A stretch of 25,738 nucleotides of DNA from a virus: positions 1 to 25,738 of the IMG/VR virus record IMGVR_UViG_3300033977_000265. One strand, 5' to 3'. Positions 451 to 13,350 of this stretch are shown here, in pieces; the first letter of the stretch is position 1, and each line of letters starts with the position of its first letter. The notes under the pieces are model-generated. The model was not told where the DNA came from. It saw nothing but the letters and a program-made list of their open reading frames with translations, and did no database searches. A program made the position numbers and the translations under genes.

Positions 451-470
451 ACTTTTAACGTCAAAAGTTT
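449..470. terminator. Bidirectional terminator-like hairpin between convergent genes
   Basis: AAACTTTT-AACGTC-AAAAGTTT is a perfect 8-bp inverted repeat with a 6-base loop. It overlaps the stop codons of both convergent genes. On either strand the stem places a run of T at the 3' side of the first arm, which suits archaeal T-tract termination. Confidence 0.5.
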
Positions 471-1953
471 AATCCTTGCCACTATTATTCGAACGCCAGA
501 ACAAGTAAACCTTTACCTGCAGCAGCGTACTAAAGATCTTAATCAGCTTAGCGATTTTACTTGAGTCTGCACTTTGTACATTCTTGAGGTAGTCGGATGT
601 TTTTCCGAAGGGTTGTCCGCTGCCGAGCTCTTGTCTAAACCTTAAGTGTTTGTTTTTAGCGAATGCCGCTTTCAGCATGTGCGTTTGTTGAGAGTTTAAA
701 CTCTCAAGTTTTTGTCGAACGTAATGTTCGCTGCATAAAAGATGCAGGTCAAAACCTAACCCGGAAAGCGTATTTGACACGTCAGATAAGCTGTTAGCAG
801 ATTGCTGCTGTGTTATTTTCTGCATGCCTGCCTTTTCAGCGAAAGGAGAATACTTTGCCATAACTGCGATCATCTCAACATAGGGCGTTCCCACTGAGGG
901 AAGCGTTTCCCTGATCAACTTGGCACCTAAGCCTATTGTTCGGTACTTTGGATGGATAACCACTCGGCTGATGATGCTTAGTTGCTTGTTAATTTCTTCA
1001 ATCGACATGTAAGGAAGCACCAGCCGTCTTCCGCGGCAGCGGGGCGGCGGATAACTGTAAACGACGACGCCGCAAAGCTCTTCTCCTCTGATTAACCTGA
1101 AGATCTTGCGGGGAGCAGCAATCCTATGTCCTCGGTAATGGAAACGGCTGAGTCTACGCCAGTCGTCCATCGTTCCCTGCTCCACCCTCATTTCTTTGAT
1201 AAGACTGCACTCTGCCGCGGGCTTGCCGGGATAGTAGCTGATTTGTATTTCTTCGCCGAAACGCTTATGCACGTGCACGCTAGGCGAGAGATCCCTCGAC
1301 AAGTCGCCATGTGTAGTAGCCGCAATCACAGCCTTACCCTGCTGCCGCGCGATCTTCTGCAAGTTAAACGCTATAATCTTCGCCGTATCCCTGTCTAAGC
1401 AAGCCGCGAACTCGTCCATGAGCCACCACTGCTTGCCGCTCTCGATCAATTTAGCGATGCGGTAGCGGTACTTCTGGCCATCACTTAACTGATTGTATGT
1501 GCGCAAGAACAGGAAAGCGTCGTTTAACCCGACTTTGCTGAGCAGCTTCAAGCCCTCCTCAACCGTGGCGCCAACAGTCTCGATCAAAGGCTTATCAACA
1601 TTAACTGCAACTTCAGACAAATCAATTGCTTCACCATCTAAGTCTGCTTTGATGGCACGTAGCAAAACGCTCTTTCCGCTTCCGCTATCCCCACTGATGT
1701 ACACTATGTCGGTTGGGCTAATCTTGAGTTCAGCGTCAAGAACCTTGAACCGTTGAGCCTCATCGATGCCTAAACCAAACGCTTCAGCCACAACAAGACT
1801 TCGGGGAGTGATCTGAGTGCGCGTTTCGTAGCTAATGTTAAATGCGAACTTACCTGCTACCCTATCATAGGTTCTTCGAAACTGCCTGATACGGAAATAT
1901 TCACGCCTTCTCAAGTTGCATAGCCTCTGCTGGCAACAATTAAAAATGATCAA
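469..1953 (-). CDS. ABC-type ATPase fused to a GNAT acyltransferase domain
   Basis: The 494-aa protein has a complete ABC nucleotide-binding core in residues about 60-230: Walker A GDSGSGKS, an ABC signature-like LSDGQKYR, Walker B WWLMDEF and a switch histidine in ATTH. There are no membrane helices, so it is not a transporter. Residues about 255-390 look like a GNAT fold, with FHYRGHR near its start, then SRVVIHPKYRTIGLGAKLI containing the acetyl-CoA loop R-x-x-G-L-G, and YVEMIAVMAKYSPFAEKAGM. The last 100 residues are basic and unassigned. The start used is TTG, with no clear Shine-Dalgarno sequence. Proteins of this ABC+GNAT layout occur in archaea and phages, but their substrate is unknown to me. 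Acylation of DNA, as by Mu Mom (also GNAT-like), is only a speculation. It is the last gene of the minus-strand run. Confidence 0.85.
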   Translation of the reverse strand: MIIFNCCQQRLCNLRRREYFRIRQFRRTYDRVAGKFAFNISYETRTQITPRSLVVAEAFGLGIDEAQRFKVLDAELKISPTDIVYISGDSGSGKSVLLRAIKADLDGEAIDLSEVAVNVDKPLIETVGATVEEGLKLLSKVGLNDAFLFLRTYNQLSDGQKYRYRIAKLIESGKQWWLMDEFAACLDRDTAKIIAFNLQKIARQQGKAVIAATTHGDLSRDLSPSVHVHKRFGEEIQISYYPGKPAAECSLIKEMRVEQGTMDDWRRLSRFHYRGHRIAAPRKIFRLIRGEELCGVVVYSYPPPRCRGRRLVLPYMSIEEINKQLSIISRVVIHPKYRTIGLGAKLIRETLPSVGTPYVEMIAVMAKYSPFAEKAGMQKITQQQSANSLSDVSNTLSGLGFDLHLLCSEHYVRQKLESLNSQQTHMLKAAFAKNKHLRFRQELGSGQPFGKTSDYLKNVQSADSSKIAKLIKIFSTLLQVKVYLFWRSNNSGKD

Positions 1954-6631: not shown

Positions 6632-7900
6632 CTAAAACCGCCTCTGCAACGCCTGAGCCGTACCCTGATTAACCGCGTTAATCACGTCATTCAGGCCCGT
6701 CGTCCGATCGATCTTGCCAATGTTGATCGTCGGGTTAACTGTGATGTGCTGGGTTCCGCCGCCGAGCCCCATCTGATTCACATTCGCGCCAGAAACACTC
6801 ATCAAACCATTTTTCAACGGCTCCAACCTCTCGGTAAGATTCCTTGAAAGCTCAACACTCTTGCTGATTTGCGTGTTAAACTCTTCCGCCGCAGGCGCCG
6901 CATGCGCAAAACACAAGGCTTTAAGCGCGTTGCCTAAGCCGCCGATGATGTCTGCTAACGGCTTCACCGCCGACGCTACCTTGCTGATGGCTGATTCAAA
7001 CATGTTGATCGGCGCTAAAACCGCATCTAAATCGGCGACAAGGATACCCTTGAAAAATTCGCCCACAGGCTTCAAAATATCATTCCACACAAAACTAAGT
7101 GCAGAGCCTAACGCGCTTATGGCTTTCTCAATGTCCGTTAAAGCAGTTTTAAAAGCGCCTTCAAGAACGCTGCCAACATCGTTGACTGCGTCTCGGAAGG
7201 GTGCACAGTGCTCATAAGCCTCGTAAAGCCCAACCGCGAGCGCTGCTATACCCGCGATTACGAGGACAATCGGGTTAGCCGCAAGAAAATCCATAGCAGT
7301 GCCCACAGCCTCAGTTGCGCCAGTAACAGCCGTTGCAATCCCCGGGTAAGCTGTCAACAGCGTGTTCAGGCTTGTAAACATGGTTAAGGCTGACGGAATA
7401 ATCATCACTGCACTCATCATCATAGCACTGTTAACGTTGTTCTGAGCTACTTGCACCCGTTCCTGAGCAACCGACAGCGTGTCCTGCGCGTCTTTCAGCT
7501 TGTCCGCAGCGTCCTTCGCCTGTGTGCTGTTCGCACCGTAATCCATCACCGCTTTGTTGTAAGCCTGCTGAGCCAAAGTTACCGCTGTCGTGTCCTTCTC
7601 AACCGTTACATGCGCTCGGTCAAGGCTGACCTCTGCGCTTTCCAAGCTGTAAACGCTCATGACTAAGCCTGCGCTTGCAGTTGCCATGGTGCCGATTGCC
7701 GACACGTTGTTCTGTATGCTCGTTGCGACTAAAGGCTGATTATCGGCGATTGCGGCAGTTGAAGTGTTAACGCTGCTTGCCATTTCAGAAGCGCTTGATT
7801 CTACATTGTCGAAACACTCGGAAGCGTTGCTGCTAAGGTCTTCGAAAACGCTTGACGCTTCATCAAACGCTGTAATATTAAACTCAACGTTGGCACTCAT
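6632..7900 (-). CDS. Tail tape measure protein
   Basis: This 422-aa protein is mostly helical. It has a long Ala/Gln/Asp-rich coiled coil (residues about 90-160), two hydrophobic stretches (VIIPSALTMFTSLNTLL; IVLVIAGIAALAVGLYEAY) and a Gly-rich end followed by HITVNPTINIGKI. That ending is common in tape measures. Tape measures in this class set tail length at roughly 0.15 nm per residue, so 422 residues would imply a short tail of about 60 nm. That is inference, not measurement. It sits upstream of the Dit-like and hub genes as expected. However, it is separated from its usual neighbour, the tail assembly chaperone, by 2.4 kb of secreted-protein genes. The ATG has no obvious Shine-Dalgarno sequence. 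Confidence 0.8.
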   Translation of the reverse strand: MSANVEFNITAFDEASSVFEDLSSNASECFDNVESSASEMASSVNTSTAAIADNQPLVATSIQNNVSAIGTMATASAGLVMSVYSLESAEVSLDRAHVTVEKDTTAVTLAQQAYNKAVMDYGANSTQAKDAADKLKDAQDTLSVAQERVQVAQNNVNSAMMMSAVMIIPSALTMFTSLNTLLTAYPGIATAVTGATEAVGTAMDFLAANPIVLVIAGIAALAVGLYEAYEHCAPFRDAVNDVGSVLEGAFKTALTDIEKAISALGSALSFVWNDILKPVGEFFKGILVADLDAVLAPINMFESAISKVASAVKPLADIIGGLGNALKALCFAHAAPAAEEFNTQISKSVELSRNLTERLEPLKNGLMSVSGANVNQMGLGGGTQHITVNPTINIGKIDRTTGLNDVINAVNQGTAQALQRRF

Positions 7901-7966: not shown

Positions 7967-9154
7967 TTAAAAACTCTTGGAGGAGCGCTTGCCTGCTCGC
8001 TTCAAGCTGAGGGAAACCGCAACAGTTGTTATCAATGTCATTGCTAATAATAGAACCGGGGCGTTGAACTCGGGTATTGACTTCAAAGGTGCCACAGAGG
8101 GAAGAGATGAGTCTGAAATAACTAAGATTGTTGAGTCTCTAGTTATAGTGAAGAGTTCTCCCTTGCCGGAATCAAAAACTGACATTCCCAGATAAGACCC
8201 AACAGTAAAGTTCTCAATCACCTTGTTAGTGCTGTCAGATATTATCGACATTGTGTTGTCACCTGTGTTTCCAACGAATATTACGCCTTTGTTTGAATCA
8301 TAAGTTGCTTGTATAGGTAGGTTTCCAACAGGAATGGTTGCGACTTGAGAGTTAGTTCTGTCTGATACAGCTATAACTGTGTTATTACCTGGGCTTGGCA
8401 AATATAATTCTCCTGTTCGAGAGTCAAATGCTGCATCCGGAGTGACATTGTCACTTATAGGTATGGTTGCAACAGTAGAATAATTGGTATCGGAAATTAC
8501 CGATAGAAAATTAGCTGGATTGCCTCCCGGTTTGCCTCCATTTTCCTGCTCATATATTACAAATATTTCCCCTTTGTCTCGGTCATAGATCAATCCTGAA
8601 GGACCTGGATTGTTCCCCAATGATAAAGACCTGATAATGCTGTTGGCACTATCGGAAATTACTGTCACAACCCCGGTGAAAAAATCCCATAACCATATTT
8701 CCCCTTTCCCGGAATCATAAATTAAACCCCCCATAGCTCCTCCATAATTAGGATTTCCTGTAAAGTTAAGGGTTGCAAGTAGAGTATTCGTTCGGTCCGA
8801 AATGACCGAAACCGTGCTATACCCATTAATCGTAAACATCTCATTCTTCCCAGAGTCATACGCCAGATTTGTCGGGCCCTCTTCTACGGTCACAGTTGAG
8901 ACCAACGAGTTATTGGCGTCAGAAATTACTGAGACTGACTCCGAAGGTATAGAAACATTCATTCCCATCTCGTTTATGTAAGGTATAAGACTGGTTGCCC
9001 ATATCTCACCCTTGCCAGAATCATAAGCAATCTCGACAGCATTCATAGAGATTTTGGCGGTTACTTCAATAGCATGAACCGAATTGGCACCCAACAACGC
9101 AAGAATTAACGTCAATAGTCCCAAAGCAAGGAAGAATTTCTTTGTACTTTTCAT
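7967..9154 (-). CDS. Secreted seven-bladed YVTN beta-propeller with C-terminal membrane anchor
   Basis: The 395-aa protein has a signal peptide (KKFFLALGLLTLILALLGA, cleavage near VHA). It then has seven repeats of the form YDSGKGEI(W/F)...VSVISD..NS.VATI; I count seven YDSGKGE-type segments, giving a seven-bladed propeller. A C-terminal anchor follows: SIPEF, a hydrophobic helix (PVLLLAMTLITTVAVSLSL) and a Lys/Arg tail. YVTN propellers are common in archaeal cell-surface proteins and adhesins. The PEF-helix-basic ending resembles archaeosortase-type sorting signals. It overlaps the upstream secreted gene by ATGA, so the two are coexpressed. Nothing resembles a virion protein. It is probably displayed on the host surface, possibly to change adhesion or block superinfection (inference). 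Confidence 0.85.
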   Translation of the reverse strand: MKSTKKFFLALGLLTLILALLGANSVHAIEVTAKISMNAVEIAYDSGKGEIWATSLIPYINEMGMNVSIPSESVSVISDANNSLVSTVTVEEGPTNLAYDSGKNEMFTINGYSTVSVISDRTNTLLATLNFTGNPNYGGAMGGLIYDSGKGEIWLWDFFTGVVTVISDSANSIIRSLSLGNNPGPSGLIYDRDKGEIFVIYEQENGGKPGGNPANFLSVISDTNYSTVATIPISDNVTPDAAFDSRTGELYLPSPGNNTVIAVSDRTNSQVATIPVGNLPIQATYDSNKGVIFVGNTGDNTMSIISDSTNKVIENFTVGSYLGMSVFDSGKGELFTITRDSTILVISDSSLPSVAPLKSIPEFNAPVLLLAMTLITTVAVSLSLKRAGKRSSKSF

Positions 9155-10119
9155 GGAATCGGGTTCCTCTTTAGCCTGAAATGCACAAGACTAGCCATAC
9201 CAACTCCAGCTAGTGCAAGAACTATAAGAAAGCCTGAAATACTGAATTCGGGCACAGTCGGCGTTGCAGGCACTGAGGAGGCTTGTGATGCTAAGTCCGT
9301 GGGCGGATAGAATAGGTTCGTCTCTGGCAATAGGGATGCGGGCACCATTTGGTTGAAGAGGAAGCCGTTTCCGTACTCACTCAGGCCTGCCGTAGCCACT
9401 GCGAATGGCGCTGTATCATTGTACAGGGTAAATGAACTGTTAGTTATGGTCTCGTAGCCTATCCTGTAAACAGTGACAGTGACGGATTTCGGTTTGCCGC
9501 CGCTCCACACTCCGAGAGCACGCGCAGGCGGATTCTCTGAAATGAAGGCTATTGAGCCAATATGCGGGCTGAGAACCGAAGTGCCTGCCGTCCAGTTGTC
9601 GCTGAAGCTGCCGCTAAGTGAGCTGTAAATGTTAATGTTTGCTAGTTCATTCACGTCATTAACAGAGTTTTCTTCATGCGAGAAAGCCGCTACGTCCGTA
9701 TAATTGGTTCCGATAAAATAAGCATAATACTCTGTTTGTCCCACATCCTTGGTTATTTTGACTCCGTACAGCTCGACGATGGCGTCGCAGCCCGTGATTT
9801 GAACGCTTGGCAAGCGTGTAAAATTCAAAAAAACCACGGACGCCGTTTCGTTGCCAGGTATGTCCCCGTAGTAAGCGTATGCCACGTTGACTTTGAACTG
9901 TGAAGCGGAAGAGGCTTCATACACGGGCGCCGTTAGAAATGGGTATCCGCTGTTTGACTGCCCAGAAGATTGAGCTGAAGCCTCAGTAAGGAATACAGCA
10001 AGTACAATTACAACAACGATGACAGCGAATGCTGAAAGATGTTTTGCATGCGCCATAACGCGCCCGCTGTCTAGCAATGAGTGCTTAAAAGGTTTGGCTT
10101 TTCCTGCGCGTGGCAACAT
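9151..10119 (-). CDS. Secreted surface protein with PEF-type C-terminal anchor
   Basis: A 322-aa protein. It begins MLPRAGKAKP, but the second ATG (10056), giving MAHAKHLSAFAVIVVVIVLA, makes a neater signal peptide ending near ASAQ. The first ATG has a GAGG just upstream. The mature part is beta-rich with several NxT/S sites and no recognised domain. It ends TPTVPEFSISGFLIVLALAG, then LVHFRLKR, matching the anchor of its downstream partner. It overlaps that partner's ATG. It is preceded by its own promoter-like sequence and two overlapping inverted repeats rather than being fused into the tail operon. It is likely host-derived cargo expressed from an integrated genome. Confidence 0.75.
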   Translation of the reverse strand: MLPRAGKAKPFKHSLLDSGRVMAHAKHLSAFAVIVVVIVLAVFLTEASAQSSGQSNSGYPFLTAPVYEASSASQFKVNVAYAYYGDIPGNETASVVFLNFTRLPSVQITGCDAIVELYGVKITKDVGQTEYYAYFIGTNYTDVAAFSHEENSVNDVNELANINIYSSLSGSFSDNWTAGTSVLSPHIGSIAFISENPPARALGVWSGGKPKSVTVTVYRIGYETITNSSFTLYNDTAPFAVATAGLSEYGNGFLFNQMVPASLLPETNLFYPPTDLASQASSVPATPTVPEFSISGFLIVLALAGVGMASLVHFRLKRNPIP

Positions 10120-10166
10120 TGCCTCAAGTGATTCCTCTGATTTCTTCAGCTTATCCCCTAAGTACG

Positions 10167-10176
10167 ATTTAATAAA
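10167..10176 (-). promoter_or_regulatory. TATA-like box for the secreted-protein pair
   Basis: The minus strand reads TTTATTAAAT about 53 bases before the ATG at 10119. That would place transcription start near 10146 and leave a leader carrying GAGG. It lies just downstream of paired inverted repeats, which strengthens the promoter reading. Confidence 0.4.
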
Positions 10177-10195
10177 TGATATTTAGTTCTATTTA

Positions 10196-10222
10196 TGGAA
10201 CAAGCTGTTCCAATTTTGGAAC
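10196..10222. repeat. Two overlapping inverted repeats sharing one half-site (operator candidate)
   Basis: TGGAACA-AGC-TGTTCCA (10196-10212) and GTTCCAA-TT-TTGGAAC (10207-10222) are both perfect in the arms and share the central GTTCC. This gives three alternating GGAAC/GTTCC half-sites in 27 bases. The element lies about 20 bases upstream of the TATA-like box of the secreted-protein pair, an activator-like position. Confidence 0.5.
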
Positions 10223-10260
10223 GCAATCAAGTCTTAAACTGTGTCTAACCTTAAGTCGAA

Positions 10261-10805
10261 CTATGGGTTCTCAAGCTTCCGAATCAGCTTAATTCCTTCA
10301 AGAAGGGTCTGGATTTGAAGACGCGAAAGCCTTCCAGCTTTAATCAGGTCATACGCTGGGTAGAAATGGCAGATCAATATTAGGCTTTGAAGTTCGCCGG
10401 AGTTGTTGAACCAGGCTTCAACGTCTTCCTGGCTGGCAAAAAACTCGCGTTCAAAACCGTTTCCTGCAAGACGCGTGACACATCATAAGGTAAAGCCTTA
10501 AGCTTTTCAAGAGTGATCTCTGAATCTGCAACTGCCAAGGACCTGAACAGTGCTTGCAGGTTTCTTTCCCTGGCATCATCAGGGTATTTCTTCGCAATCT
10601 CACTAATATCTGCCTCAGACAATAGCACATAACGGACTTCACCGAGGCCTTCAACGAAGACACTACGCAAATCTTTTGCTTGTCTTAGCACATCGTTGAT
10701 GCTGAATTTGCCAAGGCGCTCCCGCATCTTAACCTCATACTCTTCCATCTGCTTCTTGAGACGTTCAAAGCCTTCCTGGTCGAATTTCTCTTCTGGTTGA
10801 CTCAA
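10261..10805 (-). CDS. Frameshifted tail assembly chaperone (gpGT-like, 181 aa)
   Basis: A -1 slip at the T TTT TTG site (10437-10443) moves ribosomes from the 141-codon frame into a second frame that stays open for 58 more codons to TAG at 10261. The predicted product shares its first 123 residues with the short form. It then continues ASQEDVEAWFNNSGELQSLI and ends in an amphipathic helix (LQIQTLLEGIKLIRKLENP). The extension has normal coding composition and no start codon of its own, so it can hardly be expressed otherwise. In lambda and many tailed phages the G/GT pair is made the same way and loads the tape measure protein for tail tube assembly. Position after the major tail protein fits. 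A simple indel in a broken gene is the alternative. Confidence 0.75.
10380..10805 (-). CDS. Tail assembly chaperone, unshifted form (gpG-like, 141 aa)
   Basis: The gene begins with TTG, preceded at good spacing by AGGAG (in ACAGGAGAAATAAAATTTG). The product is helical and acidic to mixed. It starts with a coiled-coil-like segment (EGFERLKKQMEEYEVKMRER), then has VFVEGLGEVRYVLLSEADI and a second helical region. After the slippery site the zero frame adds only 19 residues (LPARKTLKPGSTTPANFKA) before TAA. It follows the major tail protein gene with a 146-base gap. I assign the role from position and frameshift architecture rather than from sequence identity, since these chaperones are poorly conserved. 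Confidence 0.75.
   Translation of the reverse strand: MSQPEEKFDQEGFERLKKQMEEYEVKMRERLGKFSINDVLRQAKDLRSVFVEGLGEVRYVLLSEADISEIAKKYPDDARERNLQALFRSLAVADSEITLEKLKALPYDVSRVLQETVLNASFLPARKTLKPGSTTPANFKA
10409..10443 (-). promoter_or_regulatory. Programmed -1 ribosomal frameshift site with downstream stem
   Basis: On the minus strand the zero frame reads AGT TTT TTG, so the heptamer T TTT TTG permits perfect re-pairing of the P-site tRNA and standard A-site re-pairing (TTT TTT). Two to four bases later AGCCAGG can pair with CCTGGTT across a 12-base loop: 7 bp including one G-U, or 5 strong pairs without the ends. Slippery heptamer plus stem is the usual arrangement for -1 frameshifting. Confidence 0.75.
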
Positions 10806-10951: not shown

Positions 10952-11362
10952 TTAGAATGTGCCAACCGCAACTGATGTTGCCTTAGCTGAGAAGCTGTCG
11001 CTGACCGCGCTTTTAGCATCCCACTTCAGGTCGAACTGCGTGATGATGCAGTTGCTGAAAGTGTACTTCGGAGCGCCTGAACCCGTTGTTGCGCCTTTCG
11101 GGGCAATGATAATAGTTACTGCAGTGCCGGAAGCAATCGCGTCAGACAACGCGGTGTTATCAGTCCACAACTGCTCAGCCTTGATCTCATAATGCTGATT
11201 CGTAGCTGCCAAAAGCACCGGCTGATTTGGATTAGTGCCGCCAGTAGCAAATTCTTCAACAGTATCATTCTTAATGCTGAAACTAGCGTTCTTCAGGTTA
11301 GCCACTGCTGTACCAGCAATTTGAACCACGCCGTTAATGCCTACGCCAAGAAAAGTACTCAT
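10952..11362 (-). CDS. Major tail (tube) protein
   Basis: The 136-aa product starts MSTFLGVGINGVVQIAG and is almost all beta strand. It includes NASFSIKNDTVEEFATGG, QPVLLAATNQHYEIKAEQLW and a C-terminal FDLKWDAKSAVSDSFSAKA. The N-terminal 'G.v.iaG..va.l.nasfsi' pattern followed by a strand-loop-strand is typical of small siphovirus tube subunits. It has the best ribosome binding site of the tail module (GGAGGTGA, about 10 bases from the ATG), as expected for an abundant protein. It is followed by T-tracts and then the frameshifting chaperone, the standard order. The family call is from pattern and position. Confidence 0.75.
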   Translation of the reverse strand: MSTFLGVGINGVVQIAGTAVANLKNASFSIKNDTVEEFATGGTNPNQPVLLAATNQHYEIKAEQLWTDNTALSDAIASGTAVTIIIAPKGATTGSGAPKYTFSNCIITQFDLKWDAKSAVSDSFSAKATSVAVGTF

Positions 11363-12756: not shown

Positions 12757-13350
12757 TTAATCTTTCTTCACGCATTTTATAGATAAAGAAATGTATGGCA
12801 TCATGCGTAGAAGAAAAGTCTTTGTAGCAAGAACAGGGACTCTTTGTTTGAGAGGAATCCTGGAAATAGGGTACTCTTTAATATCCGACCTACAGAGAAC
12901 ATTATTCAGCACAGTTATGGGTGTTCTGACAGTGTTCTTAACTATCCAGGATAGAATATCATTTAGTGAGTGTTGGTTCAGAGCAATCTCAATAGTGTAT
13001 TCGTCAGCATTGTAGGGAATCACAAACCTGTAGCCATTCCAATGAAGATAGAAGTTTGTTGCCAGTAGAGCTGATCGTTTGTTTCCATCAACAAAGGGAT
13101 GAAAGACAATGATAGAGTGCATAAGAATCGTGGCTCTCTGCAATATGTGAGGGTAAAGAGCTTTCCCACCTATTGTCGTTCTGGGTCTTTGAACACACGC
13201 ACTTAACATGCTCGGGTCATAATCCAAAACAATAGGAAAACCAGAAACTATGGGGCGTTCTGTATTTTTATAAAGTTCAATCAGAACATCATATAAAGTT
13301 CTGAGCCATTCTTCATCGATAGGAATTTCGTCAGTGAGCTTGGGAGCCAT
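12757..13350 (-). CDS. Fic/Doc-family toxin
   Basis: A 197-aa protein. Its active-site loop HPFVDGNKRSA (residues 84-94) is the Fic/Doc signature. A preceding helix (LQRATILMHSIIVF) and a following helix (LATNFYLHWNGYRF) complete the fold, and the N-terminal phrase RPIVSGFPIVLDYDPSML resembles Doc. The GN is followed by K rather than G, as in P1 Doc, which phosphorylates elongation factor Tu instead of transferring AMP. By analogy the target here could be the archaeal elongation factor (inference). A 50-aa gene 27 bases upstream is the presumed antitoxin. The pair sits inside the structural gene module in the same orientation and is probably an addiction or anti-competitor cassette. Confidence 0.85.
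   Translation of the reverse strand: MAPKLTDEIPIDEEWLRTLYDVLIELYKNTERPIVSGFPIVLDYDPSMLSACVQRPRTTIGGKALYPHILQRATILMHSIIVFHPFVDGNKRSALLATNFYLHWNGYRFVIPYNADEYTIEIALNQHSLNDILSWIVKNTVRTPITVLNNVLCRSDIKEYPISRIPLKQRVPVLATKTFLLRMMPYISLSIKCVKKD

Follow-up and report, generated by a model that had tools for sequence, protein, structure and literature searches.

The question raised by this locus is whether a short gene in the tail region of a virus encodes two proteins, the longer of them made by ribosomes that slip back one base. An earlier note had proposed this for a 141-codon gene, on the pattern of the tail assembly chaperone frameshift of phage lambda, gpG/gpGT (reviewed in PMC5009743). The 25,738 bases that we analysed (hereafter, the window) make up an entire IMG/VR virus record and code for a terminase large subunit, a portal protein, an HK97-gp10-like protein, a tape measure protein, and a protein weakly matched to a tail tube. 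We consider it very probable that the gene is the lambda-type tail assembly chaperone gene of a Bathyarchaeia-infecting caudovirus and that it is expressed by programmed -1 ribosomal frameshifting. Its features, together with the slip sites of distant lineages, are collected in Table 1.

Table 1. Features of the chaperone gene and its neighbours in the window, and slip sites in distant lineages (G, genome; C, contig)
Feature	Position or record	Strand	Remark
Probable major tail tube protein	10952..11362	-	Upstream neighbour of chaperone gene; weak Phage_tube_2 match
0-frame ORF, gpG-like product, 141 codons, TTG start	10380..10805	-	Conserved 0 frame
Slippery heptamer T TTT TTG, P-site TTT, A-site TTG	10437..10443	-	In frame with 141-codon ORF
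-1 frame extension, T-like domain, 58 codons + TAG at 10263..10261	10261..10437	-	
Dual-coded overlap, slip site to 0-frame stop, 18 codons + stop	10380..10436	-	
Predicted downstream hairpin	10396..10433	-	Window fold only; probably incidental
Two extra genes, 395 and 322 aa	7967..10119	-	Between chaperone gene and tape measure
Tape measure protein	6632..7900	-	PHROG tape-measure matches, e.g., E 5.7e-14
T TTT TTA	G001 C133 and C30		
T TTT TTA	G054		Two copies on 2.2 Mb contig
T TTT TTA	G088		
T TTT TTA	G002 C6 and C26, with G001 C152		Two copies in G002
T TTT TTG	G144		Two copies
A AAT TTT	G114		
A AAT TTC	G264 and G292		
C CCT TTC	G271		
C CCT TTC	G034		Weak homology, E 3e-4

In the window, the T TTT TTG to which the earlier note had pointed (10443..10437) is indeed in frame, and it is the sole in-frame heptamer of the form X XXY YYZ in the gene. 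By eye, an AGGAG lies about 10 nt 5' of the TTG start at 10805 (AGGAGAAATAAAATTTG). The first codon of the extension, GCC (10437..10435), re-reads the last base of the heptamer, and when the two frames are joined the predicted fusion has 181 aa, so that both product lengths given by the earlier note, 141 and 181 aa, were reproduced. The -1 frame of 58 codons was confirmed to lack a start of its own, since the stretch from the preceding stop in this frame, 13 codons ahead of the slip, to the slip itself contains no ATG, GTG, or TTG; the first TTG comes 22 codons past the slip. The string TTTTTTG is no commoner in the window than expected by chance (7 found versus 11.7 expected), and codon shuffling gave a suitable in-frame heptamer in the window's overlap 9% of the time, which makes the window alone only suggestive. 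The case for a frameshift site is made by the relatives, not by the window alone.

Close relatives were gathered with three queries, namely the fusion, the tape measure, and the tail tube protein. The resulting clade has ten distinct members, which are the window, L002-L007, L010 (identical to L012), L013, and L016, and the fused proteins of the nine relatives show 72-85% identity to that of the window. All ten carry T TTT TTG or, in L005 and L007, T TTT TTA at the identical codon, and in all ten the 0-frame stop follows 18-23 codons after the slip. The -1 extension has 57-62 codons, that of L003 being cut by the end of the contig. Its stop abuts or overlaps the tape-measure start (MSANVEF...) in L002, L004, L006, L007, L013, and L016, and lies ~20 bases upstream of that start in L005; the end of the window's own extension is followed by inserted genes. 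We found pN/pS to be 0.19 in the 0 frame up to the slip. Past the overlap, the extension gave 0.27 in the -1 frame versus 1.7 and 1.4 in the other two, with third positions variable in 33 of 35 codons and first and second positions in 15 of 35 each. Synonymous divergence in the dual-coded overlap was 0.32-0.37 in both frames versus 0.79 upstream. Only 2 of the 53 codons with an invariant residue are themselves invariant, one of these being the slip-site TTT. The -1 extension is therefore under purifying selection, and in the -1 frame only. A further record, L008, has a decayed copy of the gene (~10001-10478) whose frame is broken several times and whose slip site reads TTTCTTG; it was left out of the counts for and against. 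A match in Bifidobacterium (L009) was rejected as a relative, being a chance match to what is, by eye, a 3-dehydroquinate synthase.

Profile searches covering 257 Bathyarchaeia genomes and 398 genomes drawn from the phylum yielded nine further lineages that keep the design at ~20-40% identity, eight of them with clear homology. G264, G292, and G271 represent a second class of the phylum, from which seven genomes were sampled. Wherever an extension is present and its end known, it has 56-63 codons (56-59 in the Bathyarchaeia lineages and ~60-63 in G264, G292, and G271), and the extensions have a loose pattern in common, AQ..G.I.H.YP.YTL...G.LT..Q..FL..W..W. In no lineage tested, close or distant, does the open -1 frame contain ATG, GTG, or TTG ahead of the slip; the first such codon after it is 3 to 46 codons in, at a place that differs between lineages. 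The alignment of relatives that the earlier note had suggested thus came out in its favor, with heptamer and -1 extension conserved in the ten members of the close clade and in the nine distant lineages. In total, the design was found in ten lineages with five different heptamers, spanning two classes, and the product of the codon-shuffle probabilities, each lineage counted once, is ~5e-13. One additional lineage lacks the device. In G086, there is neither slip site nor extension and the 0-frame gene ends at the tape-measure start, which indicates that the T-like domain is not universal.

The earlier note had placed the gene between the major tail protein and the tape measure. This order is correct, but in the window two genes, at 10119..9151 and 9154..7967, separate the chaperone gene from the tape measure, which begins at 7900. 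The gene follows that for the tube protein, and in most relatives it is adjacent to the tape measure, with the -1 stop abutting or overlapping the tape-measure start. The match of the window's tube gene to Phage_tube_2 (E 0.0025) is under the Pfam cut-off; relatives have a tube gene in the same place. The two extra proteins, judged by eye, are of a secreted or anchored type. They have no Pfam match above cut-off, and in most relatives their genes are absent between chaperone gene and tape measure. The surroundings of the chaperone gene look like a place where cargo genes for secreted or membrane-anchored proteins insert, in the window (7967-10119, minus strand), in L010 (3956-5753), and in L003 (5186-5948), where a reverse-strand gene has a 5' fragment of the chaperone gene next to it. 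Similar fragments are found on four contigs of G001 (C151, C50, C6, and C166), and close to the C151 fragment is a repeat gene similar to that for the window's 395-aa protein. Elsewhere in the window, 469-1953 (minus strand) encodes an ABC-type ATPase with a GNAT-like C-terminal part, and by eye the second archaeal class has a similar ATPase gene directly after the chaperone's -1 frame (L072, L073, and L074). A Fic/DOC family gene (12757-13350, minus strand) sits amid the structural genes.

A stem after the heptamer, which the earlier note had also reported, is present in the fold of the window (-14.3 kcal/mol, with z of -1.6 over 61 nt and -0.4 over 70 nt) but is not conserved. Relatives do not keep the hairpin, most folding no better than shuffled sequence, and an alignment fold found little covariation support. 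We therefore rejected the stem as a conserved stimulator.

Across these records, the gene has a dual-frame architecture with selection in both frames, keeps X XXY YYZ through base changes, and offers no alternative start. Could the fused protein arise otherwise than by slipping ribosomes? RNA polymerase slipping on the six-T run would produce mixed mRNA, in which transcripts with one additional U encode the fusion; the run is present at the site in the window's clade and in most distant lineages, and an extra U reaches the same frame. However, the layout is unchanged where the heptamer is A AAT TTT, A AAT TTC, or C CCT TTC, and G114, G264, G271, and G034 have runs of only 3-4 identical bases at the site (four C in a row in G271, the fourth preceding the heptamer). 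Moreover, polymerase slippage on a T run would not need the tandem-slip form X XXY YYZ, which is conserved while X is T, A, or C, as fits the re-pairing of two tRNAs. We consider transcriptional slippage improbable as the explanation, and the mechanism of slippage could differ between lineages.

The -1 frame might also be translated as a separate protein, with no fusion, through reinitiation or a non-canonical start codon, given that reinitiation coupling is frequent among overlapping tail genes and that starts other than ATG, GTG, and TTG are conceivable for this ORF. This is harder still to accept, since those three codons are missing before the slip in every lineage tested and later ones shift in place, and since a separate start would leave the fixed heptamer unexplained. 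Least likely is an assembly or sequencing indel that split one continuous gene. The slip site is a homopolymer and the sequence a metagenome assembly, but the same break recurs, at an unchanged position, in MAGs and in independently assembled records from many samples, among them lineages whose site has no long homopolymer; 0-frame stop and dual-coded overlap have both been conserved, and no relative was found with the single continuous fused frame to which the earlier note had looked as counterevidence. The number of independent records excludes an indel in practice, in line with the doubt that the note had expressed about a chance indel.

With an indel excluded, the re-pairing pattern favors programmed -1 ribosomal frameshifting, and the retention of heptamer and extension in relatives supports the lambda gpG/gpGT layout put forward at the outset. 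We infer the ribosomal nature of the slippage, and likewise its efficiency, according to which most ribosomes would produce the 141-aa G-like protein. In a minority, the P-site tRNA-Phe (on UUU) and the A-site tRNA-Leu (on UUG) would both re-pair one base back, with UUU UUU, and these ribosomes would add the 58-residue T-like domain to give the 181-aa GT-like protein. U UUU UUA shifted less readily than A AAA AAG in E. coli tests (reviewed in PMC5009743). A chaperone role is suggested by gene position and by lambda; by this analogy, the G part would serve as a coat for the tape measure, tail tube protein would be brought in by the T part, and neither product would stay in the finished tail.

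The archaeal host assumed by the earlier note is well supported for the virus group, through the genomes of relatives rather than the window itself. The closest genome relatives are in Bathyarchaeota MAGs, namely L007 (PLSP01000115) and the decayed L008 on the 195 kb contig PLTA01000034, and the Bathyarchaeia genome G054 has two copies of the gene on one 2.2 Mb contig.

The lambda slip site is G GGA AAG, as opposed to T TTT TTG here, and our searches detected no sequence similarity between lambda gpG/gpGT and the products of the window. The putative chaperone family had no match in Pfam, PHROGs, or NCBIfam, nor in a phage collection searched with DNA and protein, and a profile search of PDB returned nothing useful. 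AF2 modelled the 0-frame product poorly (mean pLDDT 46), and the structure prediction of the -1 extension was weak (mean pLDDT 63). Since the G-T frameshift persists where sequence similarity is low (PMC5009743), the absence of a family match does not exclude an analogous function.

All the archaeal precedents that we found are predictions in haloviruses. Predicted -1 frameshifts in HVTV-1 and in HCTV-1, -2, and -5 are reviewed in PMC5009743, and a -1 frameshift at G GGA AAT has been predicted in Hardycor1 (PMC7911831). These resemble the present case in being archaeal tailed viruses with the same gene position and a -1 shift between G and T frames, and differ in having haloarchaeal hosts, whereas the hosts here are Bathyarchaeia and a related class. 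The second codon of the slip site is UUN in every lineage here, unlike at the predicted halovirus sites. A +1 frameshift has been proposed in HSTV-2 (PMC5009743) and suggested for HF1-group haloviruses, for which no X XXY YYZ heptamer was reported (PMC7230728); these archaeal viruses have the same gene pair with the same presumed purpose and the opposite direction of shift. In two papers on Bathyarchaeia viruses and proviruses, PMC10848311 and PMC11705971, the word frameshift does not occur. The device is thus known, and archaeal examples were predicted before; the present case adds a new host group and protein family, UUN as the second codon, and a new depth of comparative support.

Given an uncatalogued chaperone family, UUN second codons, and no conserved stimulatory structure, we suggest tentatively, leaning slightly toward doubt, that slippage may depend on the heptamer and host tRNA alone. 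If so, properties of host tRNA such as tRNA-Phe modification would underlie -1 slippage in these archaea. Archaeal recoding has been little documented, and these findings add conserved frameshift cassettes from a largely uncultured group. They also point out what is probably the tail chaperone family of these viruses, whose genes would otherwise pass for unrelated short ORFs in annotation.
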